A stretch of DNA of 62,650 nucleotides from a virus, in the IMG/VR virus record IMGVR_UViG_3300028840_001431, positions 1 to 62,650 of that record; one strand, given 5' to 3'. Positions 8,421 to 41,094 of the stretch are shown one piece after another. A program made the position numbers and the translations under genes. The notes beneath the pieces are model-generated. The model made no database searches. It was not told the DNA's origin and worked only from the letters and a program-made list of their open reading frames with translations. Position 1 is the stretch's first letter. Each line of letters starts with the position of its first letter.

Positions 8421-10373
8421 ATGGCCGATGATCCCAAATCCGGCCTTGAGCAATTCTTGGCCAAACGCATAGAGGATGCCGCTGAAGAGCGAAAGCGTTT
8501 CCTTGAGTTGAAGTGGAAGGCCAACCTCAATGCCGTCACCAATCAGGATTCCCGCGTGACTCGTTGGAAATCCAAGGAGGGTGATGAGGAGTGGCAATCG
8601 ACCACGTATATCGGATTGACCAAGGCCAAGGTTTGGACCCTTTACGCTATTATCTTGGATACGGCCCTTCAGCGGGGTCAGGTTCCATTCATCCTTAAGC
8701 CGAGCCCTCATGAGAGGGAGCCATTGGGTGAGGCTGAGATCTCATCCCGTGACAAGAACATGAACAAAATGGGGGATAAGATCAGGGAACAATTCGCAGA
8801 TCGCCACTCTGATCGGGAATATATGAACAAGTTCCTATCCCTTGCCTATTACGGCATGACCTTTAGCAAATTCAACGTTGCCCCCGTTACCCGCCGAGGT
8901 TTTTCCCCTACCAATTACGCCGAACCCGGATTGCCCGAGGCTGAGGCTCAGGAATTCACACGTCATGAATATTACGAATATGAGGAACAGGTCCCCGGCT
9001 TTGAGTATCGCTCAGTTTGGGATATATGGTGGGATTTTGAGGCCGATAAATTTGAAGAGGGATGGGGTGTCATCGAAAGAGAGATGCTTTCCCTTTTTGA
9101 GTTGAATGCCAAGAAGGGAACGGTTGGGTATCTCGATGATCGCGTTGACGTTGTAATCAAAGAGCGTAAAGATAACAAGCTTTCAGATGAGGATTCTTTG
9201 AGGCCGGGATTAAGACACATCAAGACCCGGACCAAGGATATTGATGCTCGGGAGTATTGGGGCCGAGCCCCCGTTCAATTGGTTGAGGACTTTGAGAAAC
9301 ACGATATCGGGAAGAAGGGTGGGGGTGAATCTCAGATATCCTTAGAGGAATGGAACGAATCGGACGAAACCGGGGATGAGGTTGAGATCATTGCAACGAT
9401 GATCAACGGGAAATGTGTCCGATTCCTGAGAAGCCCTGACGGGTATCGACCTTATAAGAAATGTGTCCTTGAGAGTGAACTCGATTCGACAACAGGGACC
9501 GGGGTTGCTGATAACCTTGAGGACGTTCAGTATTCCTTGAATGGGATGGTTAGGGCCTTTGAGGATAACAAGAAACTTTCAGCCAACGTAATAACAGCCG
9601 TCAAGAAACGTTACTTTGCAAACCCAAAGCAGGGTGAGAAACTCCATCCGGGGATGCAAGTCGATATCTCCGATGAGTGTCCCGATGTACGTCACGCCAT
9701 CTTGCCTATCGTCATTCCCGATGTCGGTGAAACGCTGATCTCCGGGATTGAACGAATGGAACGATGGGGTGACACCGTTTCTCTCCTTCCGAACATCCTT
9801 CAAGGTTTCGTATTGCCCAAGCATACCCCGGACACGGCTTTTGAGATGAATCAACTCCAAGAGAATGCCGGGAAATATGTGGGTCAATGCATGAGGAACA
9901 TTGATGAGATGCTCATTGAGCCCGAGGTATGGGATATCTATGTTTACAACATGAGAGATCCCAACCGTGACGAGGAAGGAAACGTTCTCGACCAAACCCT
10001 AGAAGAGGCCAAGGGAAACTATGTGCCTCATGCCCAAGGATTCACGGGCTTTCAGAATAAGGTGATCCGAGGTCAGAAGATCAAGGAGATCCTTGCAATG
10101 GTGCTATCAGCCGAGCAATTGGCCATCGAAGCCAAGGTTAGGCCGCACCTTGAGGTAATCTATCGGTCTTATGACGCTGATCCTGATGAGTTCCTGAAAT
10201 CGCCTGAGGAGAAAGAGCAAGAGCTTCAGGATGAGGCGACACGTCAGGAAAAGGCAAAACAAGAGGCCATCCTTGCCCTGAAGGCCGAGAAAGACCTTGA
10301 AGACGCTAACGCTGAGAAGGACTTTCAACGGGACGTAATCAAGGAAGGAGTGAAGGCGGCGGTTAATCAATGA
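8421..10373 (+). CDS. Portal protein
   Basis: 650 residues. Size, position (before scaffold and capsid) and composition match portal proteins of podovirus-like phages with N4-type capsids. Residues 60-90 (STTYIGLTKAKVWTLYAIILD) hold an early conserved helix, and a clip/stem-like middle contains the repeated D-I-W-W-D aromatic cluster near residue 200. A long charged coiled C-terminus (QELQDEATRQEKAKQEAILALKAEKD) is typical of portal barrels or tails. As a dodecamer it would form the DNA entry vertex, bind terminase and anchor the neck. No signal peptide. The stop overlaps the next start as ATGA. Confidence 0.75.
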   Translation: MADDPKSGLEQFLAKRIEDAAEERKRFLELKWKANLNAVTNQDSRVTRWKSKEGDEEWQSTTYIGLTKAKVWTLYAIILDTALQRGQVPFILKPSPHEREPLGEAEISSRDKNMNKMGDKIREQFADRHSDREYMNKFLSLAYYGMTFSKFNVAPVTRRGFSPTNYAEPGLPEAEAQEFTRHEYYEYEEQVPGFEYRSVWDIWWDFEADKFEEGWGVIEREMLSLFELNAKKGTVGYLDDRVDVVIKERKDNKLSDEDSLRPGLRHIKTRTKDIDAREYWGRAPVQLVEDFEKHDIGKKGGGESQISLEEWNESDETGDEVEIIATMINGKCVRFLRSPDGYRPYKKCVLESELDSTTGTGVADNLEDVQYSLNGMVRAFEDNKKLSANVITAVKKRYFANPKQGEKLHPGMQVDISDECPDVRHAILPIVIPDVGETLISGIERMERWGDTVSLLPNILQGFVLPKHTPDTAFEMNQLQENAGKYVGQCMRNIDEMLIEPEVWDIYVYNMRDPNRDEEGNVLDQTLEEAKGNYVPHAQGFTGFQNKVIRGQKIKEILAMVLSAEQLAIEAKVRPHLEVIYRSYDADPDEFLKSPEEKEQELQDEATRQEKAKQEAILALKAEKDLEDANAEKDFQRDVIKEGVKAAVNQ

Positions 10374-11279: not shown

Positions 11280-11876
11280 ATGAACAAACGATTTGCAATT
11301 GTAGCGTTGACGGCATTGATGGTTTTCGTTTTTGCGGGAATGGCCTTGGCTGACCCTTTCACCGGAAGGCCTCACACTTGGAGAGGTGAGCAGATTTACC
11401 GGGGAGAGATGAAGTTCAGGGGTGATAACGCGGATCTCACTTTGGAATCCGGGTCCGAGATTACCCTGACCACGGCTCCCCGATATACGACCACAACCCT
11501 TACTTGGACTGCTGGCACGGGATACACGGTTCCCTCGACCGTAAAAACCGGGGCCGTCTATCAATTCGATATCTCTTCGGCCACAAGTTCAAGTGCCGGG
11601 GGCGATAATGGCATCATGGATGTCGGCACGGCAGGGGTGACAATTCATATTCCCACCCCAACCGCAGTTAATCATGATACGATCTTCGGGCTTCAGAAGA
11701 TCGACTCCGGGACAACGGACGCTATTCTCTACTGTGCGGGCCTTCCGATCTTTTGGGCTTCGTCCGGTACAACCAATGTGAGCAAGGAAATGGATGCCCA
11801 AGGGGATATCGTTTGGTTGCAACTTAATTACAATGGTGCGGTTAGTGTCTTTGCGGTCAACGAGTATATGCATTAA
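11280..11876 (+). CDS. Sec-exported beta-rich protein inside the head module
   Basis: 198 residues. AAAGGGAGGAATAAG lies before the ATG. The N-terminus (MNKRFAIVALTALMVFVFAG) ends in an ALA-D cleavage site, a clear signal peptidase I substrate. The mature part is rich in T, S and G with alternating strands (TTTLTWTAGTGYTVPS, GVTIHIPTPTAVN), as in fibre, spike or decoration domains. Its place between portal and scaffold genes would normally predict a cytoplasmically assembled virion protein, so the signal peptide is unexpected. Alternatives are a secreted accessory factor or a displayed adhesin. Confidence 0.65.
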   Translation: MNKRFAIVALTALMVFVFAGMALADPFTGRPHTWRGEQIYRGEMKFRGDNADLTLESGSEITLTTAPRYTTTTLTWTAGTGYTVPSTVKTGAVYQFDISSATSSSAGGDNGIMDVGTAGVTIHIPTPTAVNHDTIFGLQKIDSGTTDAILYCAGLPIFWASSGTTNVSKEMDAQGDIVWLQLNYNGAVSVFAVNEYMH

Positions 11877-11926: not shown

Positions 11927-12982
11927 ATGGTCGATGAGAGTCAGGCCCTAGAGGCAACGGAAACCGAATCAGAAGATGTGAGCTTAGACGAAGGCGAATC
12001 CGTCTTTGATGATGCTTTCGATGAGGCCATAGGCGACAAACCCGATGAAGGATCTTCCGAAGAGAAATCCGAGGAGGATGAAGGGGATAAGGACAAATCC
12101 GAGGCCGAGGGTGAAGCTGAATCCGATGAGGCTGAGGCTGAGGATGAGTCTGAGGAGGACAAAGACGAATCTGAAGAAGATGAGGAGAAAGGTCAGGAAG
12201 ATGAAGACGACAAGGACAAGGATGAGGGTGACGAAGATCTGACCCCGGCTCAGAAGCGGGGAAAGATCCTGATCGAGTCCGAAAAAGGTGGGGTAGGCGA
12301 TGAAGAAGGGGATGAGGACCTTGAGGATGAGGGTTATTCCCCCGATGAAGGCCAACCACCCCCGATTGAAGCCATTGATGATCGAGTTGCCGGGGCTTAT
12401 ATCGGGATGCTTGATGTCGGAAAGCTTCCTGAGTCCCTTAAGGTTGGGGATGAAGTGATCAACCTTAAGGCGTATTATGAGGACAATCCTGAAGTTCCTG
12501 TCATTACAACGTTGATGGCCCGTCAGATCATTGGTCGGTTGGTTGATTCCGGTGTCCTGATGACGGGTGACGATGCCGCTGAAATGATGGAGGAAGTTTC
12601 TGATCGTGTCTATCGGTTAAGACTTACTCAAGAATGGCCGGATACCAATATGGAAGAGGTCATTGACAGTAAGGAATTTATCGATTGGGTACAAAACGAA
12701 GCTCCCGAGGAAACTCAGGCTCTTTTCAGATCCGATGACCCTGAGGATCATGTCTTAGGGTTCCGGGAGTATTTTGATAATTCCCCGGCCAAGAAAGGAT
12801 CGAAAGAGAAGGCCTCAAAGGCTGATGCTCAGGCCCGCAAGAGCAAGGCTGAGTTTGATGCCGTACACACTTCATCGGCTAGAAGGACCTCTAAGAAGGG
12901 TGGAGGAACCCCGGCGGTCGAGGAAGATTATGCTTCCGCTTTTTCGGACGCCGCTGATGCCGTGGAGAAGGAAGGGGTATGA
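11927..12982 (+). CDS. Acidic scaffolding-like protein
   Basis: 351 residues. Residues 15-110 are extremely acidic low-complexity sequence (runs such as EDESEEDKDESEEDEEKG), then a more ordered part (residues 145-285) and a lysine- and alanine-rich end. A charged, mostly helical or disordered protein encoded immediately upstream of the capsid gene fits an internal scaffold for procapsid assembly, as in N4-like and T7-like phages. Start supported by TTGGAGGAG upstream. Ends with an ATGA overlap. Confidence 0.65.
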   Translation: MVDESQALEATETESEDVSLDEGESVFDDAFDEAIGDKPDEGSSEEKSEEDEGDKDKSEAEGEAESDEAEAEDESEEDKDESEEDEEKGQEDEDDKDKDEGDEDLTPAQKRGKILIESEKGGVGDEEGDEDLEDEGYSPDEGQPPPIEAIDDRVAGAYIGMLDVGKLPESLKVGDEVINLKAYYEDNPEVPVITTLMARQIIGRLVDSGVLMTGDDAAEMMEEVSDRVYRLRLTQEWPDTNMEEVIDSKEFIDWVQNEAPEETQALFRSDDPEDHVLGFREYFDNSPAKKGSKEKASKADAQARKSKAEFDAVHTSSARRTSKKGGGTPAVEEDYASAFSDAADAVEKEGV

Positions 12983-13242: not shown

Positions 13243-14265
13243 ATGGGAGAAACCATTAATACCTACGGGGACATTTCCCCGAGAACAGCGGCTTATGCGG
13301 CGGCTCGGTTGCTCATGCGGGGACAGCATGACATGATCACCGAGCGTTTTGGGCAATCCCGCCCGATTCCGAAACGTCACACGAAGAGCATCAAGTTTCG
13401 GAGATACGAGTCTCTCCCCCGTGCCACGGCCCCCTTGGCCGAAGGCATCCCGCCCAAAGGTCGGAAGCTCACCTATACCGATGTCACCGCGACACTTGAG
13501 CAGTACGGTGATTTCGTTGAGCTTACCGATGTCATCAAGGACACTCACGAAGACGATGTATTCAAGGAGTCGTTTGACCTCTGCGGGGAGCAAGCGGCTG
13601 AAACGGTTGAGGTTGTCCGTATTGCGGTAATGAAAGCGGGAACCAACGTCTTTTATGCCAACAATGCCGGATCTCGATCAGCTATTAATTCTCCGGGTGT
13701 CCGGGGTGACTTCCGAAGGATTTATCGTTCCTTCCGAAGGAACAAGGCCCGTCAGATATCCAAGATGGTCCGAGCTTCCGCGAAGATCTCCACCGAGCCC
13801 GTGAATGCGGCCTTCTTCGTATTGGGTCACACCGATTGTGATTCCGATATCCGAGGACTTGAAGGGTTCGTTCCGGTCGAGCAGTATTCCGATTCGACCA
13901 AGGCCCTTCCCACCGAAATCGGGAAGATGGATCAGTTCCGTTTTTGCCTGACGGCCCTGTTTGAGCCTTGGGAAGCGGCGGGTACGGCTGGTCAAACCTA
14001 TCTGAGTGGTGGGGAGATTGTCACGTCCGACACGGCGGCTGATGTCTATCCGCTGATTGTCCTTGCAAAGAATGCCTATGGCATCGTTCCCTTGCAGGGT
14101 CAGAACGCCGTGAAACCCGCCGTGAGGAACCCCGATCAGCCTGCCGTGGGTGATGAGCTTGGGCAAAAGGGATTCGTTTCGTGGAAAATGTACCAAACAG
14201 CCGTAATCTTGAATCAATTGTGGATGGCCCGCCTTGAGGTGGCCGCTACAGCCGTCCCGAGTTAA
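13243..14265 (+). CDS. Major capsid protein, N4-gp56 family
   Basis: 340 residues. The N-terminus (TINTYGDISPRTAAYAAARLL), the SIKFRRYESLP segment (49-59), APLAEGIPPKGRKLTYTDVTATLEQYGDF and the AAETVEVVRIAVMKAGTNVFYAN segment are the recognisable core of the N4 gp56-type HK97-fold capsid proteins. It forms the icosahedral head in the cytoplasm and has no signal peptide. AAGGAGA precedes the ATG. Parts of its N-terminal 82 residues and its final 21 residues recur in the Tat-signal protein at 3854. Confidence 0.9.
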   Translation: MGETINTYGDISPRTAAYAAARLLMRGQHDMITERFGQSRPIPKRHTKSIKFRRYESLPRATAPLAEGIPPKGRKLTYTDVTATLEQYGDFVELTDVIKDTHEDDVFKESFDLCGEQAAETVEVVRIAVMKAGTNVFYANNAGSRSAINSPGVRGDFRRIYRSFRRNKARQISKMVRASAKISTEPVNAAFFVLGHTDCDSDIRGLEGFVPVEQYSDSTKALPTEIGKMDQFRFCLTALFEPWEAAGTAGQTYLSGGEIVTSDTAADVYPLIVLAKNAYGIVPLQGQNAVKPAVRNPDQPAVGDELGQKGFVSWKMYQTAVILNQLWMARLEVAATAVPS

Positions 14266-15103: not shown

Positions 15104-15121
15104 ACCTTTTTGAATGATTCC

Positions 15122-15153
15122 GGGGACGGGGGAGAAATTCCCCCTCCCCTTTT
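15122..15153 (+). terminator. Rho-independent terminator after the head operon
   Basis: GGGGGA pairs perfectly with TCCCCC around a 5-base GAAAT loop, extended by a GGGG/CCCC outer stem and followed by TTTT. The ribosome site of the next gene begins right after it. Confidence 0.7.
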
Positions 15154-15166
15154 GAGGAGAGAAGCT

Positions 15167-16027: not shown

Positions 16028-17053
16028 ATGAGCCAAACACCAATATCAAACAAAGCCTTGATTCAGAATTGCAAGGACTTTGTTCAGGATGATCCAACGG
16101 GCCAAACTCTTGAGCCCATGATCAAGGTTGCCCTCAAGACTGCGATTCGTGAGATCAACGAAATCGATGAGCAAGAGCCCCTTGGATGGAACCGCCAATC
16201 TTATGATGAGCTTTTTACGAAGGCTTATTGTGAGATTTCCGCTATCACGGCGGCGGCTCCCGGAGTCATTACCGCTGAATCAGTCCATGAGGATCTTGAG
16301 GATGAGCACGGCCTTGTAAGTGGGGAAATTGTTTGGATTGATGGAATCTACGGGATGGATCGTCTAAACCGCCGCTTATATCGGGTGGTAAAAGTTGACG
16401 ACGATCAGTTCTCATTGCTTCAATTGGATGGGACAAATGCAATAAACACTGATGGATATGATGCTTATACATCCGGTGGGCATGTTTATTCATGCGGCAT
16501 GGTCTTAACGGCTTCCGATATAGAGCCTGATACCGGGGACGCTGAGGACAGGTGGAAAATCAAGAGGGTGTTTGATATCCAGTTCGATGGATATCCTGCT
16601 GATCCGATCACCGATGGAGAGGTCAAGGGGGATCAGAAATGGCTCAGGCCGGGAGGTAGGCCAAAGCGTTGGCAATATAAGCGGTTTTCCAATGCGGGCC
16701 TTGACGCCGGATTTGAGCACATCATTATGTGGTATCCTCCATGTAATGATCGATATAATGTTTCAATCGATATCGAGAAGGCATACCCGGATATTGCAAG
16801 CTGGACTTCAGGCAAATACCCGAATCTTCCTCCCGAGGTCCATGATTGCATATGGCATCGGGCTCTTCACACCTTGGCCACGAATGCCGAAAAGGCAAAG
16901 CGTGAGTCAGGTGATAGAATGATGGGTAAGATTGAAGTCCTCTATAAGGCCCATTGGGCTGAGCAAGTCATCAAGGATGACAGGTTCATTAAGAACTTCA
17001 GTCGTCAGTTAATTGGGGATCAGCCTAGGTCATCCTCGGGGTGGTCAGCTTAG
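16028..17053 (+). CDS. Probable neck/adaptor protein with FCCH-like insert
   Basis: 341 residues. The N-terminal part (LEPMIKVALKTAIREINEIDEQ) resembles the helical start of phage head-tail adaptors. Residues 70-155 (VHEDLEDEHGLVSGEIVWIDGIYGMDRLNRRLYRVV, then DDQFSLLQLDGTNAINTDGY) resemble the small beta domain related to the E1-enzyme FCCH fold that occurs in phage structural proteins. The end is helical and basic. It follows the previous stop directly. No signal peptide. Confidence 0.55.
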   Translation: MSQTPISNKALIQNCKDFVQDDPTGQTLEPMIKVALKTAIREINEIDEQEPLGWNRQSYDELFTKAYCEISAITAAAPGVITAESVHEDLEDEHGLVSGEIVWIDGIYGMDRLNRRLYRVVKVDDDQFSLLQLDGTNAINTDGYDAYTSGGHVYSCGMVLTASDIEPDTGDAEDRWKIKRVFDIQFDGYPADPITDGEVKGDQKWLRPGGRPKRWQYKRFSNAGLDAGFEHIIMWYPPCNDRYNVSIDIEKAYPDIASWTSGKYPNLPPEVHDCIWHRALHTLATNAEKAKRESGDRMMGKIEVLYKAHWAEQVIKDDRFIKNFSRQLIGDQPRSSSGWSA

Positions 17054-17094
17054 TCCCGTCCCTAAAACTCTTGACTGAGATTTAGGAGTATGAT

Positions 17095-17805
17095 ATGAAA
17101 GCCCTCATCTCTTCGTTTTGTGTCCTCCTTATCATGCTTGGGGGCCTCGATCTTGCCTTCGGCGGCTCCCAAGCCACCTCCTCTTTAACAGCCGCGACAA
17201 TTGAAACCCGAGCAAGACGTGACCTCGATGAGGATACGGCCCAATATTGGAATCAGGATGACATGATCCAATGGATTGATGAGGCCGTTAGGGAGATCGT
17301 TTATACCACCAAATGTCTTGAATCCGGGACCTCTCTTATCGTTATCAAAGATAGCGTTTTCACTTATGATATTACCGGGAATTGGCTAACCGTTGAGACT
17401 GTCACTTATGATAGCGGGGTTACTGATGACCGGGATTATCTCTTCACCCTCAAAAGAATCAATCTGAGATCCCTCGGGCATAGCAAGGAAACGGGAAACC
17501 CGAAATACTTTGCTGTTTGGAATGATGATCTCATCATTGAGCCCGTCCCCGGAGCAGATCAATCAGGAACGACTCTCTATCTTTATCGAACCGATCTTCC
17601 TTCGGGCGTAACCCTCATCACAAGCCCAATCGAAACGCCCACCTATTTTGACACAGCAATCCTTGATTATGTGAAGGCCAAGGCCCTTTATAAGGATAGC
17701 AAGGAAGTCCGGGGTGACTACCATATGTCACGGTTCAAAAGCCGGATTGCTTCATGGATGATTCATATGTTGCCGGGAGGGTTGTCCCTGACCGAAGAGG
17801 ATTAA
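17095..17805 (+). CDS. Head-tail adaptor-like protein with an N-terminal Sec signal
   Basis: 236 residues. TTAGGAG precedes the ATG. Residues 1-23 (MKALISSFCVLLIMLGGLDL, then AFG) look like a signal peptide with cleavage near AFG-G. The mature part (TIETRARRDLDEDTAQYWN, DDMIQWIDEAVREIVYTTKC, FDTAILDYVKAKALYKDS) matches phage gp6-type adaptor proteins, which normally bind the portal in the cytoplasm. A signal peptide on such a protein is very unusual. Either the start region is a fusion, or the neck assembles on or across the inner membrane. Confidence 0.65.
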   Translation: MKALISSFCVLLIMLGGLDLAFGGSQATSSLTAATIETRARRDLDEDTAQYWNQDDMIQWIDEAVREIVYTTKCLESGTSLIVIKDSVFTYDITGNWLTVETVTYDSGVTDDRDYLFTLKRINLRSLGHSKETGNPKYFAVWNDDLIIEPVPGADQSGTTLYLYRTDLPSGVTLITSPIETPTYFDTAILDYVKAKALYKDSKEVRGDYHMSRFKSRIASWMIHMLPGGLSLTEED

Positions 17806-17806
17806 A

Positions 17807-20449
17807 ATGATACGCCTCAGATATGCCATTCTTGCAGTCCTAGCGGGATTCTTGGCTTTTGCTTATAACAATGTGTCATTAGGCCAAGATGACGATGAGC
17901 AGAAATGGGCAATAACTGACAAGACAAAGACCCCGAAAGAACGCCATCGTGCAACTTCATTCGCTCTTGCCGGGAAGCTTGACAGGACAAGCCCGTTTGT
18001 TGCTTTGGATGGGAGCAATATCAAGGAAGCCGTCAATATGCGGCGACCCGCCCCCGGCTTGCCCGTTGGTTGGAAGGCTCGGGGAGGATGCACTCCTTAT
18101 AATACCACCGCAATAGCATCAGCCGAAGTTAAGGGCCTTGCTCAGCTAATCGTTACCGAAACAGGCGTTGAGAAGTTTTACGCTCAATGCAATGATGACT
18201 TTTATGTTTCCTCAGGCACTCCCCCTGATACCGTTACCACTTTCGGGACAAAGCTTCTTGACCTTGCCTCGGATGCGGGGCCAATGCATTGGGGAAAGAT
18301 TGACGATGAGATCACTTGTGCCGCCTCAGGCCAAACCCCTTGGGCTACCTCGGGGGGCTCAACCTACCCTGACTCCTTCCTGACTCAGCATACCACCGGA
18401 ACCACGGCTTACAATGATGGAAGCATGTTGGTTGCCGATGAATTGGACACCACTTCAATCGGTATGCCTAACCATTCAGGAACCTCGGAATATGCCTATC
18501 TAGGGTTTCACAGAAGGCTTGACGGGGCCGAGCTTCAGTTAATCGCCGGAACCACCAACATAATGGCCGCTAAGACGGGTGTTTCAGCCTATACGTCTTC
18601 AGGGTGGACCTCATGCACGAACATCGTTGACGGTACGGCTGATGGCTCAGGCGTAACGACTCTCTATGAATCCGGCTACATTGCATGGACAAACCCCGCA
18701 AACATGATCCCATATGTTTTGCCGGGGACGAAGAACCATCTCTTTTGGTATCGATTCCGCGTAACCGCCGATGTGACCGACAATGTTCAGGTCAAGAGGA
18801 TCTTGGTTGCCGATATCTGCGAAGAGGTTACTCACTTATGGTCAGGACTCTATGAGATCGTTCTTGGAGCCCTAGAATCTCATACGACCGGATTTTACGA
18901 TTGGACCCCTGAGGTCACAGATGGAAGTGATGTCGAATACATGGATGCCGATATCACGAATTCTCAGGCCATCTATCTCGGGTTTGCTCAGCCTGTCATG
19001 GGCTTCTTCATGGAAATTACCTCTGACTCGGGGAACGTGGGGACAGCTACGGGATGGAGGGTCTATTATTGGGACGGGGATGAATCTGATTGGTCTGAGA
19101 TAACCGGAGTGACCAACGATAGCACGGGTGAGGGATACCCGCTTCAGCATACCGGGGTCATGCAATGGGACACCAACGGAATCAGGCCTGATCGAAGGCA
19201 ACTCGCGGGGCGGTTGACTCCGTTCTATTGGTACAAATGGGAGCCGATTGTAAGTCTTGCCTCAGAAACGATCAGCCTTTATGAGATCGGTGGGATAGTT
19301 GATCCGAATGGGGTCCGGGATATCAGCAAGTACGAAGGGGTGATGCACTACAATGGAAGGGCCATGTATTGGCCGGGGCAAGACTATAAGAACGGGATGG
19401 ATTACTCTCAAGAGTATGAACCCCAAATCATAAACGGCCCCAAAGCCGGAAGCACGGGCGGGATTTTCGGTCCCGGTCGAGTTCACCTAGCCCTTGAATA
19501 TTCCTCGTATGGAATCGTGTTTACAAAGGACCCCTATCGAACCTATGTGCTTCAGGGCAAGGTTCCGGGTGAATTTGATGAGCTTTGCATATCAACAAAG
19601 GTTGGGGCTATTGGGCCTCACGCGGCTTGCGTTGTCGAGGATGGGATTCAAGCCTTTGCCAAAACCCGAATTGTTCATGCTGTCTTTTTCGTGGCTCAGG
19701 ATGGTCTATATTTGACCGATGGGATGACAGTCACGAAGATCAGTCAACCGATATCGGATTATTGGGACACCGGGGCAACCCCTTACATCCAACCCGAGTA
19801 CGCCTATAAATGCTATGTTTGGTATAATTTTATTGACAAGACGGTTCACATCGGGGCTCCCGTTAATTTTGAAAACGATGATACGCCTCAGACGACTTGC
19901 AACGTTGAACTCATTTACAGTCCGATTGGGGAGGAATTCTATGACAGGTACGTGAGGAATAGTCCTGCCGCTTGCGGCCTCAGTTTAATCGGCAATGATG
20001 ACCAGAGGTTGACATACATTGGTGATTACTCAGGGACGGTACATCGGCTCGATACCGGAAAAAACGACAATAATAATGTCATCACCCACCATATCAAGAC
20101 CGCCGATTTTAACCCATTAGAAGGCAAGCTTGAAGATGCCTTAAATCATAAATTCAAACTTCGTGCGGTCAAGATCAAGGCGAAAGCTCAGACGGTGGGA
20201 GTAGCTGAAATATTGGTTTACCCGGACGATGCCGATTCGGGTGTGACCCCTCCCGGCGGGACTATTTCCTTAGTAAATTCAGGGTACAAGCTTGCTCAAG
20301 GTAGGACCTTGATGGGGAGAGATATTACATACCTGATGGAGACTAATTCCATAAGATTCAGAAGCGGAGTTTCGACCGCTGAACTAGATACTGTGATGGA
20401 ACTCTATGGTTATACAGTCGATTATTACGAGGTCAGGCCGACTCACTAG
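17807..20449 (+). CDS. Tail nozzle-like protein with an N-terminal Sec signal
   Basis: 880 residues. The first residues (MIRLRYAILAVLAGFLAFAY, then NNVSLG-Q) fit a signal peptide. The body resembles large podovirus nozzle or tubular proteins with a beta-propeller: IKEAVNMRRPAPGLPVGWKARGG-type start (residues 72-95), and a later segment with GIVFTKDPYRTYVLQG, FFVAQDGLYLTDGMTVTKIS. It would form the distal part of the short tail. Its end overlaps the next gene by 44 bases. The combination of nozzle and signal peptide repeats the pattern of the adaptor gene upstream. Confidence 0.6.
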   Translation: MIRLRYAILAVLAGFLAFAYNNVSLGQDDDEQKWAITDKTKTPKERHRATSFALAGKLDRTSPFVALDGSNIKEAVNMRRPAPGLPVGWKARGGCTPYNTTAIASAEVKGLAQLIVTETGVEKFYAQCNDDFYVSSGTPPDTVTTFGTKLLDLASDAGPMHWGKIDDEITCAASGQTPWATSGGSTYPDSFLTQHTTGTTAYNDGSMLVADELDTTSIGMPNHSGTSEYAYLGFHRRLDGAELQLIAGTTNIMAAKTGVSAYTSSGWTSCTNIVDGTADGSGVTTLYESGYIAWTNPANMIPYVLPGTKNHLFWYRFRVTADVTDNVQVKRILVADICEEVTHLWSGLYEIVLGALESHTTGFYDWTPEVTDGSDVEYMDADITNSQAIYLGFAQPVMGFFMEITSDSGNVGTATGWRVYYWDGDESDWSEITGVTNDSTGEGYPLQHTGVMQWDTNGIRPDRRQLAGRLTPFYWYKWEPIVSLASETISLYEIGGIVDPNGVRDISKYEGVMHYNGRAMYWPGQDYKNGMDYSQEYEPQIINGPKAGSTGGIFGPGRVHLALEYSSYGIVFTKDPYRTYVLQGKVPGEFDELCISTKVGAIGPHAACVVEDGIQAFAKTRIVHAVFFVAQDGLYLTDGMTVTKISQPISDYWDTGATPYIQPEYAYKCYVWYNFIDKTVHIGAPVNFENDDTPQTTCNVELIYSPIGEEFYDRYVRNSPAACGLSLIGNDDQRLTYIGDYSGTVHRLDTGKNDNNNVITHHIKTADFNPLEGKLEDALNHKFKLRAVKIKAKAQTVGVAEILVYPDDADSGVTPPGGTISLVNSGYKLAQGRTLMGRDITYLMETNSIRFRSGVSTAELDTVMELYGYTVDYYEVRPTH

Positions 20450-21884
20450 CATATGCCTTGTGCTCTTCTTCCTCATTGCGGGGGTGTCTGACGGGAAGAT
20501 CATTCGTCCGGGCTCGGGTGAGGAATATGAGACTTTCACCGAGAGGATCAGAAAGACCCACGAATCGGATATCAAGGCTAGGTTCCCGAAAGATGAAATT
20601 CGACCTGATACTGTGCATGGGGTCAAGGAGAGTCTTGATGCATTTAGGAAAGCATCGAAAGATAAAAAGCCTTGGGCTCATAACGACTTTAACGAGATGG
20701 AGGAAATTGCTTGGCCCCATTTCGATATCAGTTTCCCAAATTGGGACTATCCCGACATGCCTTGGTGGCCGGGGTTTGATCCATGGCCAACGGGGCCGTA
20801 TGGGCCTCAGCATCCTGACGATATCCTTGACGTTCCGGGTTGGTATTTACACGGTTGTTGGATTTCATGTTTTCCGGGGATTATCGAGTGCGTTGATGGA
20901 GAAGCCGAATGTGTTATCACGACTTCACAAATCATATGTGGGATTGATGTAGTCGGACAGGTTCAGGATTGGAGGTTAGAGGGGAACAACCTTATCATCG
21001 TTCCGGCCATCTCGGCGGTCGATAATAGCGTTATCGAAGTCGAGGTTTGTACCTGTCCCCTTGATTGGCAATTAAAAGGCGGTTGTTGTGATGCTCGGAT
21101 CATTATCAACTGTGAGGAAGAAGAGGAAGATATATGCCTAGGGGCCACTCCAACAATCGTTGCAGATGCCACGACCGAGGCGGCTTATGGTGATATTTGC
21201 TCAGGTGGAAACACGTCTGGAACCTTCAGCGTTCAGAGTGGAGGCCTCGCGGTTCCACCATATGAGTGGACTCTCACCTGTGCGGGGTCAAATTTCACTC
21301 TCGATGGTCAGGCTTGCCCCGCCACGGCTGAGACTAGTTCTGATGGGTCCTCGGTCACGGTTGCTTCATCAGGGGCATGTGGAGGGGCCACTTTAAGGGT
21401 CGAGGATGCTTGTGGTGAAACCGATACATATACGATCATGTGCTCAGATTCGGGGTCTTGGGTCACGATTTATAGCACGGCCCTTGGAGATCCTGAGTCA
21501 GACGCATGTAATATGCCGGGAGAATCAACTCATATCGTGGCGGGTCAAATGCGGCTTGATGCCGGATACCGAAGGCAATACCATAATTACATCACGGTTG
21601 GGGCCGGGGCTGTCCAATGCGTCGGATCAGGGTGCGGAAGCCCACCCCTCAATGATTGCCAGTATGATGGATCTCCGGGACGTTGTTGCGGTGGTGGGTG
21701 TCCCTCATGGGGTTGCTATGATTGCCTTTGCGGAAACGGGACCCTCGTAGGGTGTGCGGCCCTTACTTTCAGGATTTGTGATATGTGCGGTTGTGATGAT
21801 TGTTGGCATATAACGGGTGGGTATTATCAATGTGCCTGTAACTGCTCAGTTGACTTCGTTTATCAGGAATGGCAATGCCCATAA
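20406..21884 (+). CDS. Exported protein with 36 cysteines
   Basis: 492 residues. The N-terminus has R-S-G-R-L then TSICLVLFFLIAG, a signal peptide or anchor. I count 37 cysteines, 36 of them beyond the signal, clustered at residues 135-275 and in the last 110 (for example PGRCCGGGCPSWGCYDCLCG). The middle has immunoglobulin-like strands (VPPYEWTLTCAGSNFTL, SDGSSVTVASSGACGGATLRVED). This density implies disulfide bonds or metal clusters; disulfides would need the periplasm. It overlaps both neighbours, so it belongs to the tail operon. It could be a tail tip or adhesion protein. Confidence 0.6.
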   Translation: MVIQSIITRSGRLTSICLVLFFLIAGVSDGKIIRPGSGEEYETFTERIRKTHESDIKARFPKDEIRPDTVHGVKESLDAFRKASKDKKPWAHNDFNEMEEIAWPHFDISFPNWDYPDMPWWPGFDPWPTGPYGPQHPDDILDVPGWYLHGCWISCFPGIIECVDGEAECVITTSQIICGIDVVGQVQDWRLEGNNLIIVPAISAVDNSVIEVEVCTCPLDWQLKGGCCDARIIINCEEEEEDICLGATPTIVADATTEAAYGDICSGGNTSGTFSVQSGGLAVPPYEWTLTCAGSNFTLDGQACPATAETSSDGSSVTVASSGACGGATLRVEDACGETDTYTIMCSDSGSWVTIYSTALGDPESDACNMPGESTHIVAGQMRLDAGYRRQYHNYITVGAGAVQCVGSGCGSPPLNDCQYDGSPGRCCGGGCPSWGCYDCLCGNGTLVGCAALTFRICDMCGCDDCWHITGGYYQCACNCSVDFVYQEWQCP

Positions 21885-22213
21885 TCTTACTTTTGCTGAT
21901 ATTCCCAAGCTTTGCAAACGCGGCCCCGTTTGATATTGGGGAAGTTGTGAGGAGGGACAGGACCGGAAGGCTCCCCGAGTACAGGCAGATTACTGTAAAA
22001 GTCGAAAAACGCAATGATTGGAGAAAACGAAGATATGCCAAAATAATGGCCGATATCCAAGAGGAGAGGAGAAAGAAGGAATCAGAATGGGCATTGTGGA
22101 AGCTCGGGAACATATTGGACAAGATGAAGCCGTTCTTGATTTCCGTGGACTCAGATCTAAATCCTACCCTTGTGTTAAACCCAAAATATATGCAGTTCAG
22201 GGCCAAGGGCTGA
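21869..22213 (+). CDS. Small exported charged protein
   Basis: 114 residues, overlapping the previous gene by 16 bases. MAMPIILLLLIFPSFANA-A is a canonical signal peptide with an ANA-A cleavage site. The mature part is a highly charged helix (EKRNDWRKRRYAKIMADIQE, RRKKESEWALWKL). After its TGA the same frame stays open to the TGA ending at 22319. Confidence 0.6.
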   Translation: MAMPIILLLLIFPSFANAAPFDIGEVVRRDRTGRLPEYRQITVKVEKRNDWRKRRYAKIMADIQEERRKKESEWALWKLGNILDKMKPFLISVDSDLNPTLVLNPKYMQFRAKG

Positions 22214-22925: not shown

Positions 22926-22937
22926 GGAGTACCGAAA

Positions 22938-24698: not shown

Positions 24699-27600
24699 AT
24701 GGCCTACTTTACAACGAAGTTGTCAGATATTGTGCCGGGAATCGATGACACCAACCCCACTAGGCACTTAGTCCAACCCGCTCAACAACCGAGTGCATCT
24801 CAGCAAATCGAGAGTTCCTTGATGAGTCGAAACGACCGGGAATATCTCGATCAGTTGCGGCGGGCTCATGTGCCTAAGGGTAGGCCCCACCTGATGGGAG
24901 CCGTAAAGAGTACCGCTCTTGAGGCTCTTGGAGGTTTGGGAGGCCTTTTGGAGATCCCCGGCGAAGTCATTTCTCCCCTAAAGCAAGCGGGTGAGAACGT
25001 CAGGAATTTCTATTCTCAGATTGCCGATGAGGACCCCGATGTTCAGGAATACACCAAATCAGTCATCGAAGGGCGGGAACCATGGGTTGGAGAATTCGCG
25101 GGCTCCCTTGGTCCAACGGGTATGGCCGCTCTTCTGCATACCGTTCCGCTTGCTGGTCGAGCATTGGCAACGGCTTATTTCTATAAGCTCAACAAAGAAG
25201 AGGCTGAACAACTTGCACTCGACAAGGGAGCAGATCCGCAAAGAGCCCTATGGACCGGAAGGGTTGCCGGGGCCATCAATTCAGCCTTGGATATATGGGG
25301 ATTAGATCGGATTTTTGCGGCCTCTCAACCCGCTAAGAATATTGGAAGATTCCTTCTCAATCTTGGGATGGCCGGAGTTTCCGAGGGTGCAACTGAGGGC
25401 CTTCAGGAAGTCATCTCCGATATGTCGTCCGAGTTTGCGGCAAAGCCCCCTGAGCAGGACTTTGGTGAGTTTATCTCCGGGATGGAGCAAAGGCTCCCAA
25501 CCTTCTATAATCGTTTCAAGGAAGCCGCCCTTATCGGTGGTCCCATGGGTGCTCTATTTGGTGGAGCCGCCGGGGGAGCCGCCGCTCTTCAGAGGCGGGG
25601 ACGTGCAAAAGAAGCCGAGAGGCAAAGAGTACAGACCGAGCAAGAGGCACAAGAACGGGCTCAGGAAGCCGCCCAAGACCAAAAGCGTACAAACATAGCC
25701 GATGCCGTCCAAATGGCCCTTGTGGCCGAACCGGGGGGTCCTAGAGACTTTATTTTGAAGGGGGCCTTGATTCCGGCTATGACCGAGCAAACGGGTCCCG
25801 CAACCCCGGCCCAACGTCGAGCCTTGCCGGAACCTCAAAGAGCCCTCCCTGAACCTCAGAGGATGCTCCCTCATTCCACTATCCCACCAATTGAAGCTGG
25901 TCCTTTCCCGCTAGTACCGACTGAACCGCGTAGGCCTACCGAGGCCCCCACAACGGTCTTGCCGATAGGTGAAGAGGCCGTTGAGGCGGGTCCCTACCCC
26001 ATAGTTCCTACCGAAGGACCAAGAACAGATATCGGAAGAGCGGGCCTTGCTCGGAGAGTTCAGCAAGTTGCCGGGATAGGAGAACCGACCGGGGAAGTCA
26101 TAGAGATGGCTCAACCCGCCGAGGAGGAAGCCTTTGAACCCGTCGAGCCCACGGTTGAGGTCGGTGAAGCCGCCGAGGTTCCCGAGCTTACCAAAGAAGA
26201 GGTTGATCTTAAAGAGGCCTTCAGAAAAGCCCAAGAGAAAGCCGCCGCCGCTGAGCCCAAGCCGGAGAGGGAGAGAACTCGATTTGATGACATTGCCGAT
26301 GAGCTTGGGATTACATATGACGGCCCCCATCAGGGCCTAGAGCAGTTCACCACCGATAGCGGATATACGTTCTCACTCCCGCCGGGGCAAGTAACCATTA
26401 CATCAGTTCGTAAGGCAATGCCGGAAGATGAAAGGCCCGATTTTGTTCCCGGCCCTGAGCGTGAGGGAGCCGAGCCGCTTGAATTTACCGAGCCGAAACT
26501 TCCCGCCGATGTTCACGGCATTGTCATGGCTGACCCCGTTGACCCTGATAGGCAAGTCTTTTACCGAAGGGAACAGGCCGGATTTCTTCCAGAGTATGAC
26601 ACAGACGATGCCGATGCCGCTGAGCTTCTTGGGAAAAGGATAGCTTTGAAACGTGGGGTTGGGCGACCTCACAAATATGGGAATCTTATCAGGATTCTTG
26701 AGAGGAAAGGCATTCCTTACCGATTGCTTGGAAAGGATGAAACCGAGGATTTCTCTGATAAGAGGATCTCAGGCATTGGGAGCATTGATTACATTCAGGA
26801 TGAATACGCGGTCAAATATCAGGGAATCAATGAAGATGGAACCCGCCGATGGACCTATGAGGGTCAGGTTGAGGAGATAGCCGGGAAAGAGTTTACAACA
26901 AAGGGACTTGATGAGGATGAGGTTGCCGCTGAAATAGGGAAGCTTGAAGATGAGTATATAGCCGAGCAGACCGAAGCAGAGGAAGCCCTCCCGCCTGAAG
27001 AGGAGGTTGAGGTTGAAGAAGAGCCGGAAGGAGAAACCCCGCCGAAAGAGCCTAAGCCCGAGCCAACGGCTGAGGCAAAACCCGACAAAGAAGCAACCTT
27101 AAAGATACTCAGAAGGCGTCAAGAGGATTGGAATAAACAAGCGTTGAAATATGAAGGGGGGAAAGGGATACCCGTAGGGGCCGAGGGGGTTCAATATCGT
27201 TGGGCCTCTGATGCAATGATCATCATGCAAAAGGCGGTTGAGGCAGGAAAGACGATTGATGAAGCCGCGACCGAAGCCAAAGCTACGGCCCGTGGGTGGA
27301 TAGAGAAACATAATGCAAGACGGCCCAAAGATATCAATTGGAAGAGATGGGAGGGGGCCGCTGATACCTATATTGACGATGCCGTTAGGGAAGTCAAGCG
27401 GTTGGAGCCGGAAGCAATCACCGAAGAGCCTGAGGAAGTCACCGAAGAGGCTCCCGAGGTTCGGGAGGTTGCCCCTGAGGATGTCGTCAATGATGCAATG
27501 AAGAGAGTTCAGGAAGCCGCCGAGAATGCCGGGGCCGATTACTCAAACACCCCCATGATCGAAAAGGCCAAGATTGCCGATGTTCTTTGGGCCAATACCA

Positions 27601-30600
27601 TATTGACCGAAATCGAGGATGCCGCCGGGAATGAATATTTCTCTGATGGGCATTGGGCAATCAAGAAAGACCAAAAGAAAGCATACACCCCGCTTCAGAA
27701 AAGAGCAGATAAGGTCAAGAGCATTCAGCCTTATAGGGGTGAGATGAAGGTCAAACTAGAAGATATCATTAGCACAGAGAACAACCTTCCGCTTACCTAT
27801 GTTGGAACTACCCAAGAGGAAAACGCTGATCCTCAGGCTTGGTATGTTGACGGGATGGGAAACCTCAGGGCTATCAATGAAAACATAGGGACCTTTTTCA
27901 AAAGCAGAATTGGGGCTTTGAACTTCCGGGGAGATCCGGCTAAGGATATCTCATTTAATATGTATGCAGGGGATGAGCTTGTTGGTGTGATTATGCCAAT
28001 GAGAGCCCCCTTCCCCGTGGAGGAGGTTCAGCTTCCTGAAGGGGCCGAGATCGAAGAGCCCGAAATAGAGAAGGGTGAAGCCGCCGAAGGGGAGAAGCCC
28101 AAGAAGAAGAAACGAAAAGGACGTTGGACCGATACCGGGAGAGAGATCCACGGGAAACGTGCTTCTAAGGATAAGAGTGAACGAATTGAAGCCATCAACG
28201 TTGAGCTAGACTCAAACATCGATGAGAAAGCCGACCCTGAGGCCTTCCTCAAGGCCATCAATAAACTCACCAACAAATCGAAGATCCTGAAGCTTGACCT
28301 CCCTGAGGGGGCGACTCCGGGGACTCTTAGGTTCCTCAAGACCTTCCGAAATAAGATCAACGGTTTCAACCGTTGGGCGGCTAAGGAGTACAAGAACTGG
28401 CAGGATTCAACCGACAAGGGGGCCATCCTAAGGCATCTTGAGGCCAATCCAGAATATCAGGTCAATGTCAAGAATCAGGCCTCTGAATACATAGCAACCC
28501 TTGAGCTTCTTGAGGAAGCCATCGAAGAGACTTCGACTGTCCAAGAGGCTCGGGATAAGCTTTGGGAATTATTCGTTGAAGATCCCGCGATTGACAAAAT
28601 GAGAAAGGTGTATCCGAGCAGATTCAAGTTTACCCCGTTCGGTGAGTCAATCGTTGGAATGTTTGCTCAGGCTTTTCCGGGGGCCGATCAATGGACCCGG
28701 AGTTCAAGGAACGCCTTCAAGTGGACTTTCGGTAAACATGCTGATTCCGAGATGGCCGATGAGGAGGGGGCTGATAGAAATCAGGCCTTTGAGCATCGAC
28801 CGGGAAGGCGTTTTAACTTCATGGATATCGAGGATGACCCAAATAAATACAGGAATGGCAAGGACGTTGACCCGAAGACTCTTGAAAAAGTCTTTGGGTT
28901 TACCGGGATTAAGTGGGGAAATTGGGTAAGCGGAAGAGAGCAACAACACGTTGCAAATCTGTTTTATGACGGCTTTCACGAACTAATGAAGGCCATCGGC
29001 GGGGCTCCCGCAAGGGCTATTTCGGTTCCCGCGACTGATCCGGCCTTGGCTATTGGCTTTGGAGGTTGGGGCCGTGGTGGAAGGACAGCCGCCCATTACC
29101 AACCATCAGATCACTTCATCCACCTTACCAAAACAAAGGGTGACGGTTCTGTTTCTCATGAATGGGCTCATTCTTGGGACAAAGGTTCCAAGATTGACAT
29201 GAGCAACAATAAAGACGAAAGCCTCAGGGATATTGATCCACTTAAAGATATCAAAATAGCCCTCAGGACAAAGTATAACTTTGAAGCCATCAGGGAAGAG
29301 GCCTATCAGCTTCTCAAGGGGTTACACCACGAAACAAGGCAATCAAGAAAGAATCGGGTTGACAAGGCAAAGGCATGGCTCAGGTCACATTGGAAGCAGA
29401 TATCAGAGGAAGAAACTCAATTCTATCGGGATGCAAAGAAGCTTGATGCCGGGAAAGACCCGTATTATCGGACAGAAGTTGAAATGTTTGCACGGGCCTT
29501 TGAGTCATGGATTGCTGATAAGATTGGTTCTGATGCACTATTCATCGTTGATCCTGAGTTTGTGAGCGGTAGCTATATCAAGGATCACTTCAATTGGGAC
29601 GTTGATGCTTACCCGAGTGGTGAGGAACGGGAAAGACTGAACTCACTCTTTGAGAATCTATTCCGAAATATTACATGGGACAAGAATGGGATTCCGACCG
29701 TTGGGCCTGATTTTGTTCCCCTCTTCATCAATACCCAACGAGAGGTTGAGGCCGAGCTTGAAAAGTTCCTTGAGAAGCTTGATGAAATCTATAATGCAAT
29801 TTATGGCGGCAAGCCTTCCAATGACGGGCTTTACTGGTATGCCTATCTCGACACCTCCCGAGCCCCCGGAATGCAACCCTCTGGAATGGTTGCCTATGAC
29901 GATAAATATAAAGTAGCCGAGCAGATTGAAGAGCATGAAGAACGGGGCGGCATTGGAGCCATAGGGTATTCTGGACCGCTGATAGCCGATGACGTTGTTG
30001 AGATGGGCCTTGTCCCGATCAATCACGACAAGAACGATGATACCCTTTATCTAGGGGGAGCAAATGGCCAAACTTCAGAGAATTGGACAGATGGCAATGG
30101 AGCATTGGGGGAAGTATCGTCCCAAGATGGTAAGCAGTTTGAAGAGAAGGGGACTATTGTTACCGATCCTGAAGGAAGTGGAAGAAGCTTGGGAGAGGGG
30201 GATGACGGACTTGGTATCAACGAAGGGGGTGAATCCTCGGATAGCGGAGGAACTGATGAATCGGGGGCTGATATTTCTGCCGGAGGAACCCGAGCCGATC
30301 CCGGAAATGGTCCGGGGGCTGATCCCGCTAGAATAAATGAAGATTATGCAATAGGTCCGAGGGATTATATTGATGCCGATCTCGATCAGGTTAGAACCTT
30401 CACCAATGCTATCTCAGCCATTAGGATTCTAAAGGAGGTTGAAGAGGGACGATATCCGGCAACTGAGGGGGAGCAAAGAATCCTCCAAGCCTTTCCGGGT
30501 TGGCAAGCTATCAAGGCCGAGCTTGATCGGTATTCGTATGGAGCCATTCAAAACCGTCATGACATGATCTCCGGGATGCTCAGCCGGAGTGAGATGAACT

Positions 30601-33600
30601 CGGCAAGGAAATTCAAGAACGATTCCCATGCAACCCCATTGCCTGTGATTGATGCCATATGGGAAACGCTCCAAAGGTTCGGCTTTACGAGTGGCCGAAT
30701 CCTTGACTTTGCTATGGGTAAGGGCTCGATTTTTGGGGCTATGCCTAAGTCCATGAGGAAAACTTCTGTCCTGACCGGAATTGAACCCGATCAGATCCAA
30801 AGGAGAATTGCCAAAAAGCTTTATCCTAATCAGTACATAACGGATACCAGATTTGAAGAAACTCCCTTAGCAAACAATTACTTCGATCTAGTTTTCACCG
30901 ATATGCCCCATACAGCCAATCGGTTGAGCAAGCCTGATCCCGAGCATAATCCTCTTGGGTGGGAGTCTGATCCTCATTGGCTCAATAAGGCAATCAATCA
31001 CACGCGGGAGGGAGGTCTAATTGTAGCCATTGCGGAAACGGAGTTGATGGATGCTCCTAACAATGCCGATGCCCGGAAGAATATCGGTGATAAGGTTGAC
31101 TTCCTTGGGGCTATTAGGCTTCCGAAACAGTTATATGGGGATATGAGCAAGGATGTCATCTTCCTTCGCAAGAAAGGCGGGGGAGGTGTCGAGATAAAGA
31201 AGAAGGCATGGGAAAAGGTGAACGCCGGGGCTCGGATTCCCGTCAATGAGTATTTCGTTGAAAATCCCCAAATGGTTCTAGGTCAACTTGAACTCGACAA
31301 TGACCCGATATCGTACAGAATAACGAAGTATGCCCTCAGCCAAGACAAAGCTGATAACGTTGAAAGGGAAATCAACGATCTTGCAACCACCGATCTTCCG
31401 ATAAACATCTATTTTGAGGAGATCCCCGGAACCGAGATAGATCTTCTCAAGACTATCCCTGAGCCTGACTTTGTAAAGGATGGGGCCTTTGTAATTGAAG
31501 GAAAGAAGCTTTATCAAAGCATTGGAGGGAAGCCCGTTGAGGTGAAGGATTCTCCCCGTATTCGTGGCATGGTCGGAATGAGGGGAACCATCAGGGGGTT
31601 GCTCAGGTCCTATGCCGCCGGGGAAACAAAAGCCAAAACGGAGAAATGGAGGAAAGCCCTCAATAAGCAGTATGATGAATTTGTCAAAAAGTTCGGCTTC
31701 GTGAATGCGGTTCCGAATGTCAAGGCATTCATCCAAGATCCTGATGCCCCTCTCCTTCTCACCCTTGAGCGGTGGGATCATGAGCGGCAAAAGTCTCTAG
31801 GTAAAACCGCAATCTTTGAGCCGGGATTCTTCAAGCCTGTTACCCCTCCAACCTCGGCTAAGAATTCATCGGAAGCCCTGAATCTCTCGTTAGCATGGAA
31901 GAGCCGAATTGACTTCCCGTGGATGACCCGTTTGAGCGGGGTTCCTCGGGATCAATTGATTAGCGAATTGAAGGGCAAGATCTATGATGATCCAGAGGTG
32001 GGGTGGGTAACGGCTGATGAATATCTGAGCGGCAATGTGAAGCATAAGTTGAGAGTTGCTCAGAAGATGGCCGAGGTCAACAAGAAGCAATATGGTCCGA
32101 ATGTCAGGGCCTTGAAGAAGGTCATCCCCGCCGATTTGCAATCCCATGAAATCAACGTAAGGCTCGGGGCGGCATGGGTTCCCCCTAAGGTTATTGGGGA
32201 GTTCATGAAAGACCTCACCTTTGAGTATAATGTCAAGGCCGAGTATAGCCCCGTTCTCGGGAAATGGCAGATCAAATTTACGGGAGCCAGCAAAGCCGCC
32301 GCTAAACGAAACAAAGATTCAGCGGTAAGAAGCACAGAGGCAACCTCTGAATGGGGGACCTCTGATGTCAATTTCTTCGATCTCCTAGGGTATGCCCTCA
32401 ATGGTGGGTTCCCCGATGTGAAGAGGGTTGCAGTCGATTCAAAGGGAATGCCTCACACAGATGAGAATGGCAGAAAGATCATGGTTCCTGACGTTGAGGC
32501 TACTGATGCCGCAAATTACAAGCTTGAACAGATCAAAGAAAGGTTCTCTCAATGGGTATGGGAGGATCAGGCTAGGCTTAGGAATCTGACGCGGATCTAC
32601 AATGAAAAGGTCAATGCCTATGTGAAGAGGGTTCACAAGGGGGATCACCTCGTATTTCCGGGCAAAGTCCCAAATGCAATCTTTGATTTTATGGATCACC
32701 AAAAGAATGCCGTTTGGAGATTCCTACAGCAAGGGAGTGTATATTTTGCTCATGAGGTTGGGACTGGGAAAACCTTCTCAATTATAGGTTCAGTAATGGA
32801 AGCCCGAAGGCTTGGGCGGGCGAAGAAACCCATTGTTGCCGTCCAAAATGCCACGTTCGATCAGTACAAAAGGGATTGGGCCACGGCATATCCTGCCGCA
32901 AATGTGCTATTTGCCAAGATCCCAAAGAAGGAAGGCCCCGAAAGGAGTGCCATCCTGAAGAAGATTTCATCAGGAGATTATGACGCAATTGTTGTCAATC
33001 ACCACTCCTTGAGTTTCCTTGAGGTGAGCCCAACCGCTCAGATTGAACAACTGAGGAAGGAGCAAGCCGAGCTTAATGAGTCATTGGGAATATTGAGCTT
33101 GCAGGGAGCCGGAGAGGAAACCATAAGGAAGATATCAGGTGCGGTTGCAAGGTTGGAGGATAGGATTGAATCTCTATCCGGGGCTCCAACCACCAATGAA
33201 GTCTATTTCGACAACATTGGGGCTGATATGATTGTTGTCGATGAGGCTCACAGCTTCAAAAACCTCGATATCAAAACAAGCTATGGGAATGTCAAGGGAA
33301 TCGACTCAGCGGGGGCTCCATGGTCAATGAATCTGTACCGGAAGATTCAGTATATCCGAAACAGGTACGGAAAGAATATCATCCTAGCCTCAGGAACTCC
33401 GCTAACCAATAGCGTGGGTGAGCTTTACACCATTGCAAGGTACGTTCAGCCCGATATGCTTGCCGCCCATCACCTCCAAGGCTTCGATGCATGGGCTAAC
33501 ACCTTTGGCTTGATCTCCAACGAATCGGAACTAACACCAACCGGGACGGGCTATGTGAATTCAACCCGATTTAAGAGCTTTGTCAACATTCCCGAGTTAG

Positions 33601-40260: not shown

Positions 40261-41094
40261 ATGGGAAAACGAATCTTGATGCTTTTGGTGGTTTTTGCGT
40301 TTACCCTTTTGAACGGGGACGCATTTGCTAAGGTGAGAACCTATGAGATGTTTCTGAATACGGGAATCATCCAAGGGGAAGGAGAACCATTCAACGTTGA
40401 TGCCGGAACAACTGTGACAGGCGTAACCAATGTCATTGTTGGTGGTTCTGGCATGAATCGTCAAGCGGGCTCCAAAACCATTCCATGGGAAGATGACGCC
40501 GGAAAGGTTTGGGTGGTCGAGCTTGCCTCAGCCGTTGTGAGTGAACATGCTCAAGGCCAAGGGGGTGATAATTCAGGTACGACCTTCAGCCTTTGGGCTC
40601 TTGGTGCGATCAACGGGAACTTTGACGCGGCTCGGCGGCAATACCTGTTTTTTGAGCAGGACCTAGGAGCAACTTCCCCTTATGTTACATCTTGGGAGCC
40701 GATACCGGGATGTGATTATCAATTTCGGTTTGAATCCGTTGGAGTAACAGACTTTGATAGGGCAAAGTTTGTGCTCAAGACAGGATTCCCCGCAAATTTC
40801 AAGCTTAGCGGGGCCTTTGTTCTGGATGAGTCTCAATATGTAATCAATGCTAATTCGGGAGTTAGTACCCTGACCATACCTGATGGGGCGTGGAAGATGT
40901 TCATTGGAGTGAAGGGGAACGATGTAGCTTGGTCCCTTGATCCTGATGAAAATGTCATCACATCAAGCGGTATGGTTTTGAATGATGGAGATTATTTGAC
41001 TCTCGATGATTATAACCAAATTAACAACTTTTCATTCGCCTTAGAGGATGGCGGCTCGGGTGCTACCGTTTGGGCGGTTGCCTTGAGTAAGTAG
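40261..41094 (+). CDS. Sec-exported beta-rich protein, possible fibre or spike
   Basis: 277 residues. AAGAGGAGAG precedes the ATG. MGKRILMLLVVFAFTLLNGD then AFA-K is a clear signal peptide. The mature part alternates strands and turns (AGTTVTGVTNVIVGGSG, FEQDLGATSPYVTSWEPIPG, SGVSTLTIPDGAWKMFIGVKG) like phage fibre or spike domains. It lies after the ejected-protein block, where fibres are commonly encoded, and before a LamG-type protein with its own signal. Confidence 0.6.
   Translation: MGKRILMLLVVFAFTLLNGDAFAKVRTYEMFLNTGIIQGEGEPFNVDAGTTVTGVTNVIVGGSGMNRQAGSKTIPWEDDAGKVWVVELASAVVSEHAQGQGGDNSGTTFSLWALGAINGNFDAARRQYLFFEQDLGATSPYVTSWEPIPGCDYQFRFESVGVTDFDRAKFVLKTGFPANFKLSGAFVLDESQYVINANSGVSTLTIPDGAWKMFIGVKGNDVAWSLDPDENVITSSGMVLNDGDYLTLDDYNQINNFSFALEDGGSGATVWAVALSK

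Follow-up and report, generated by a model that had tools for sequence, protein, structure and literature searches.

Predicted Sec signal peptides on an SU10-type neck adaptor and across the tail proteins of a podovirus-like phage clade

The adaptor protein encoded by ORF 17095-17805 of the virus record IMGVR_UViG_3300028840_001431 (62,650 nucleotides, the whole stretch analysed and here called the window) is predicted to carry an ordinary signal peptide of the Sec/signal-peptidase-I type in front of a complete SU10/T7-gp11-type domain. Judged from the sequences of related viruses, such signals mark the tail proteins of this clade as a group and not the adaptor alone. It is proposed that the phage is podovirus-like and that several of its tail proteins are made as Sec precursors. 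The boundary of export would fall between two stacked neck rings, the products of ORF 16028 and ORF 17095 (genes are named here by their first position; Table 1). Assembly of tailed phages is described as cytoplasmic until lysis, and assembly in two compartments, if confirmed, would be a new kind of phage assembly.

Table 1. Neck, head and tail features of the window; hyphens within motifs mark predicted cleavage sites
Feature	Position	Strand	Basis
Shine-Dalgarno (SD) sequence of the adaptor gene, AGGAG	17084..17088	+	sequence upstream of ATG
Predicted Sec signal peptide, residues 1-23 (AFG-GSQ)	17095..17163	+	predictor, relatives' alignment, AlphaFold
Mature SU10/gp11-type adaptor ring protein, domain ~residues 33-225	17164..17802	+	Pfam, AlphaFold, structure comparison
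Further neck protein of adaptor fold, signal-less, probably the ring that docks on the portal	16028..17053	+	fold, clade clustering
Fibre-like protein with signal peptide (ALA-DPF)	11280..11873	+	signal rule, clade clustering
Nozzle-like tail protein, signal peptide, predicted site AFA-YNN	17807..20446	+	signal rule, clade clustering
Signal-bearing, Cys-rich product of the tail region; SD not found	20406..21881	+	signal rule, Cys count
Small protein, signal-like start MAMPIILLLLIFPSFANA, no n-region charge, uncalled by the rule	21869..22210	+	
Distal protein with signal peptide (AFA-KVR)	40261..41091	+	signal rule
Lectin-fold (Laminin_G_3) distal protein with signal peptide	41108..42010	+	family match, signal rule
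Portal (PHROG 332), without signal	8421..10370	+	PHROG match, clade clustering
Putative scaffold (by position), without signal	11927..12979	+	clade clustering
Major capsid protein (PHROG 1357), without signal	13243..14262	+	PHROG match, clade clustering
DarB-like protein, 5182 aa, presumed ejected, without signal, without cysteine	24699..40244	+	

The coordinates and plus strand of ORF 17095-17805 (236 amino acids, ATG start) were confirmed exactly, and the gene sits between the capsid and nozzle-like genes. Its product opens with MKALISSFCVLLIMLGGLDLAFGGSQATSS behind a good ribosome-binding site, and n-, h- and c-regions can be told apart in the N-terminus, MKALISSFCVLLIMLGGLDLAFG-GSQATSS. 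The match to the Pfam family SU10_adaptor (PF24175; E 4e-15, 57.1 bits against a curated cut-off of 27) spans residues 32-219 and profile positions 2-179 of 194, and PHROG 399 is matched as well. With the family profile covered almost in full, the signal is additional to a complete adaptor domain. The AlphaFold model, built from an alignment of 12 rows (pLDDT 82.8), has a lone helix at residues 2-17, a disordered joint at 19-26 and the domain from residue 33, where helices 33-43, 54-72, 183-200 and 204-225 enclose a beta insert (77-167); the C-terminal residues 229-236 fall below pLDDT 50 in this single-chain model. The initial annotation had named a gp6-type adaptor, of which the adaptor fold was upheld; the type is better called SU10/T7 gp11/P22 gp4.

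Among solved adaptors, the model resembles 8jov_2 of phage GP4 (Z 15.3, rmsd 4.4, 195 residues aligned), 9k09_d of cyanophage A4 (Z 14.7), SU10 7z47_A (Z 12.5) and the DEV adaptor (Z 10.6). In most of the leading alignments residue 1-2 of the solved chain pairs with residue 28-31 of the model, an exception being SU10, whose residue 9 pairs with model residue 29; a profile search of PDB sequences placed profile position 30-33 on chain residue 2-5. Adaptors of the SU10/T7 gp11/GP4 type (PF24175; 7z47, 8jov, 9k09) thus have the helix bundle with beta insert, the gene order and the fold in common with ORF 17095, but they begin at the domain without a signal, whereas 23 Sec-signal residues stand ahead of it here. 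The helix-bundle-plus-dock layout of the model is that given for the SU10 adaptor in the available part of its report (PMC9509320), and the corresponding part of the DEV report describes a C-terminal adaptor arm lodged between portal subunits (PMC10925440).

Relatives were collected by a scan of viral contigs with the ORF 17095 protein, which gave L001, and by scans with alignments, which gave the remainder. The aligned adaptor set (A6) has 12 rows, L004 and L005 contributing two each, at 26-43% identity to the window protein. The signal-like segment reported in the initial annotation is present in all 12 rows, each with a hydrophobic start and an SD match of 4-6 bases, and so is a conserved cleavage column: glycine stands at +1 throughout, and residue -1 is small (alanine in nine, serine in two, glycine in the window). 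Small residues occupy -3 and -1 apart from a leucine or cysteine at -3 in two relatives. Homologues with a conserved non-hydrophobic start were looked for and occur only outside the clade.

Signals were called by an in-house script built on a von Heijne-type matrix, which called 8/8 positive controls and 6/52 E. coli genes (five membrane or lipoprotein genes and trkA). That the signal reflects a wrong start codon or chance hydrophobicity is hardly credible. The rule does pass 15% of N-termini whose first 40 residues were shuffled (561/3800); nevertheless, with one adaptor taken per locus, 18 of 19 were called as signal-bearing, against 0/19 when the same proteins were begun at residue 33. An SD sequence precedes every signal start in the alignment, and none of the 12 aligned adaptors has a start codon with an SD of at least 4 bases between the h-region and the domain; in two rows a GTG with an SD of 4 lies within the domain. 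The artefact was rejected on these SD sequences, the conservation and the controls.

Loci were also chosen independently of the signal, by a search with the signal-less upstream gene (A7). It gave 24 loci, 11 of them on contigs already in the set, and the other 13 were examined. An A6-type adaptor lies downstream in 10 of these 13 (11 genes), and 10 of the 11 genes pass the signal rule, as does the nozzle-like gene after the adaptor in 7/7 of the loci that hold it. The exception, the L085 adaptor, has n- and h-regions and a poor cut site (GLA-RGG). The contig of L087 is cut off, and its terminal stub has a signal with no match to the adaptor profile. In two outgroup loci, L088 and L089, nothing matched the A6-type adaptor and none of the genes inspected carries a signal; the adaptor likeness of the gene at 8085 in L089 was judged by eye only.

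Between the window and L001 adaptors, identity is 17% in the signal versus 48% in the mature part, and between the second adaptor copies of L004 and L005 it is 39% versus 97.6%; the first copies run contrary, with 90% versus 85%. Divergence in sequence without loss of signal character is what functional signal peptides show. The pair L004:11923 and L005:13965, with the latter disparity of 39% and 97.6%, looks as though a signal had been swapped. L005 also encodes a 618-residue signal-bearing protein (14668-16524) whose C-terminal adaptor domain is the third adaptor module of that phage; L004 holds a cut counterpart. An alternative is that the signal is translated and goes unused, fast folding or capture retaining the proteins in the cytoplasm while the hydrophobic end becomes buried or is removed by a different protease. 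In its favour, the cytoplasm is where a neck ring would be expected, and the available parts of the SU10 and DEV descriptions mention no such segment on those adaptors. On the other side, a segment whose sequence varies while its signal character and cleavage column are kept fits selection for Sec use, and the signal spans several unrelated proteins, so that this alternative is considered unlikely.

The initial annotation had framed the signal as a matter of one protein, and this framing was abandoned: confinement to the adaptor was ruled out, since several unrelated tail proteins were also called. The rule called 8 of the 70 genes in the window, including 11280, 17095, 17807, 20406, 40261 and 41108. 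Over ten viruses, with duplicates removed and with tail and head classes chosen after the signals had been seen, signals occur on 28/29 tail genes versus 2/52 head genes. The tail count becomes 26/27 once two genes placed by position (L047:3364 and L053:8624) are dropped, and the two head positives are weak scores in one decoration-like family. Clade clustering, in which row counts include near-identical contigs, gave signals for 18/18 adaptor rows, 3/3 fibre-like rows and 8/10 rows of the nozzle-like family, which also took in window gene 41108. The two misses in that family are a single gene in two near-identical contigs; the nozzle-like gene of L043/L044 scores below the rule (2.5 versus 3.5). 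Signal-less were the capsid (0/13 rows), the 16028 family (0/11), the 15110 family (0/10), the scaffold (0/8) and the portal (0/6), and the 14294 family had one weak call in eight rows.

Isolates whose capsids or adaptors are related gave no signal call on their annotated adaptors and nozzles. Counted over genes that exclude some on the minus strand or cut, the rule picked out in L060, of 27 genes, a lysozyme, a spanin-like gene and one hypothetical gene, and there were no calls in L061 (0/23), L062 (0/27), L063 (0/7) or L064 (0/6). Of 28 loci that hold a capsid gene and extend far enough beyond it, counting near-duplicates, 14 are without an SD-backed signal in the stretch examined. Four capsid relatives (L009, L013, L014 and L028) have signal-less neck genes and signals further along the tail region; some of these downstream genes are possibly fibres or lysis genes, and the arrangement is perhaps an earlier step.

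The term nozzle-like for the 17807 product is weakly held, on its position and on an N-terminal motif that we take to be nozzle-type. The tail-tubular-B-like region begins near residue 50, comparison with isolate nozzles gave a weak match (hhalign E 0.0012, probability 20%), and the PHROG match is labelled amidase. A search for solved relatives found none, returning one unrelated match at E 0.02. The neighbouring 20406 protein has 36 cysteines in 462 mature residues, and its relatives in L043 and L045 have a signal plus 19 and 22 cysteines. The cysteine counts of the adaptor and the nozzle-like protein are unremarkable, and disulfides as an argument for all the tail proteins were rejected because the excess lies nearly all in 20406. 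Three consecutive presumed ejection proteins in the window (22296-40247, plus strand: 22296, 22938 and the 5182-residue protein) contain no cysteine, and in G001 four sequences presumed to be counterparts or portions of them likewise lack it; the 5182-residue DarB-like protein has helicase, methyltransferase-like and LPD1 matches. Agrobacterium phage Milano also has Cys-rich structural proteins, but with cysteines throughout the neck, capsid and tail; the available portion of its text (PMC10491603) lacks the term 'signal peptide'.

The signal-less product of 16028 also has the adaptor fold, matching 9k09_d (Z 11.7), 8jov_G (10.8) and SU10 (10.3), with the alignment extending to its C-terminal end. 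ORF 17095 reaches higher Z values, and the Foldseek ranking mixes adaptors with E1 matches. The beta insert of 16028-17053 (plus strand) is the larger of the two and is similar to the FCCH domain of ubiquitin-activating E1 enzymes (Z 6.8; 79 residues at 27% identity). Kinship of the two neck proteins by profile was rejected, hhalign finding nothing (probability <1%), and their link is one of fold only. Several adaptor-fold genes per genome are seen here, 16028 and 17095 by fold in the window and further copies in L004 and L005. A second adaptor-fold protein upstream, which is signal-less, sets the window apart from the SU10/T7 gp11/GP4-type systems. GP4 itself is represented among the matches by two distinct chains of adaptor fold, 8jov_2 and 8jov_G. 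According to the available part of its description, crAss001 stacks five adaptor-fold rings, R1-R5, with disulfides in the tail barrel (PMC10172136), and that text does not contain the term 'signal peptide'; its chains 7qog_B and 7qoj_D match ORF 17095 by fold (Z ~9), with no sequence match seen.

From gene order and by analogy, 16028 is probably the better candidate for docking on the portal, and ORF 17095 would be the next ring beyond it. The earlier idea that ORF 17095 must itself dock on the portal thus found no support. It had also been argued that an exported adaptor would prevent the neck from forming; the signal was confirmed, but the impossibility does not follow, because a 16028 ring that never leaves the cytoplasm could close the head, and the paradox is partly resolved.

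A scheme that joins these observations has close to an even chance of being right. The head (portal, scaffold, capsid and ejection proteins) and the 16028 ring would be made and assembled in the cytoplasm, where the ring would dock on the portal. The 17095 ring protein, the nozzle-like protein, the Cys-rich protein and the fibres would be exported through Sec, trimmed by signal peptidase I and folded outside the cytoplasm, with disulfides in the Cys-rich protein. Head and tail would then join across the opened membrane at lysis. The broader proposal that the whole clade assembles its particle in two compartments, with the parts joined at the membrane or at lysis, is held somewhat more tentatively. 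No precedent was found for an exported neck ring joining a filled head, which counts against two-sided assembly.

The same signal evidence would also fit assembly tethered to the membrane, the signals bringing tail proteins to the inner membrane with translocation incomplete or late, and the neck and tail being built there and freed by signal peptidase. Adaptor rings normally form on a cytoplasmic portal, which favours this version. Positively charged n-regions and conserved signal peptidase I sites predict a mature part outside, and a 36-cysteine protein suits an oxidising compartment, so that membrane tethering is rather unlikely.

The exported proteins might instead not be virion parts and act outside, for example against superinfecting phage like Spackle of T4. 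That protein, gp61.3, is exported by means of a signal that is cleaved off, and it binds a component of the tail (PMC7650644); it differs in being a small inhibitor and neither a ring nor a tail protein. This role is improbable for the proteins of the window. The genome is complete, with a 144-base direct end repeat (1-144 and 62507-62650), and holds a single signal-bearing adaptor ORF and a single nozzle-like ORF, both in the usual neck and tail places. There is therefore no cytoplasmic copy to replace the signal-bearing forms, and a phage that used them outside would lack those tail parts. The frame of the large terminase runs across the end repeat, as in a complete circular or permuted genome.

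The literature surveyed, mostly titles and abstract openings, did not bring to light Sec signals on structural proteins of the neck or tail, and the available text on rumen phages gives 0-2 signals per genome (PMC5723332). A conserved export boundary between neck rings would make the building of a tail outside the cytoplasm a testable question, together with how the filled head stays closed and whether the gain is disulfide folding or escape from cytoplasmic defence. It also cautions that a phage gene with a signal peptide need not be a lysis or host-interaction gene.

A host search, run without a positive control on 387 genomes from the phylum to which a Lentisphaerae bin belongs, gave no match, and neither did a search of plasmids. 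One related capsid was found among genome_contigs, in a genome without an A6 match. Two further window genes on the plus strand have Tat-like starts. ORF 4528-5085 begins with MKITRRGFLKLLGVGG and has no family match. ORF 3854-4462 begins with MNRRSFVKAIIAVGAS, and its relatives, L004:2426 and L005:4510, are without a signal; its 202-residue product aligns with the capsid-protein profile in two separate stretches (E 6.5e-11), like a miniature capsid arm plus C-terminus.
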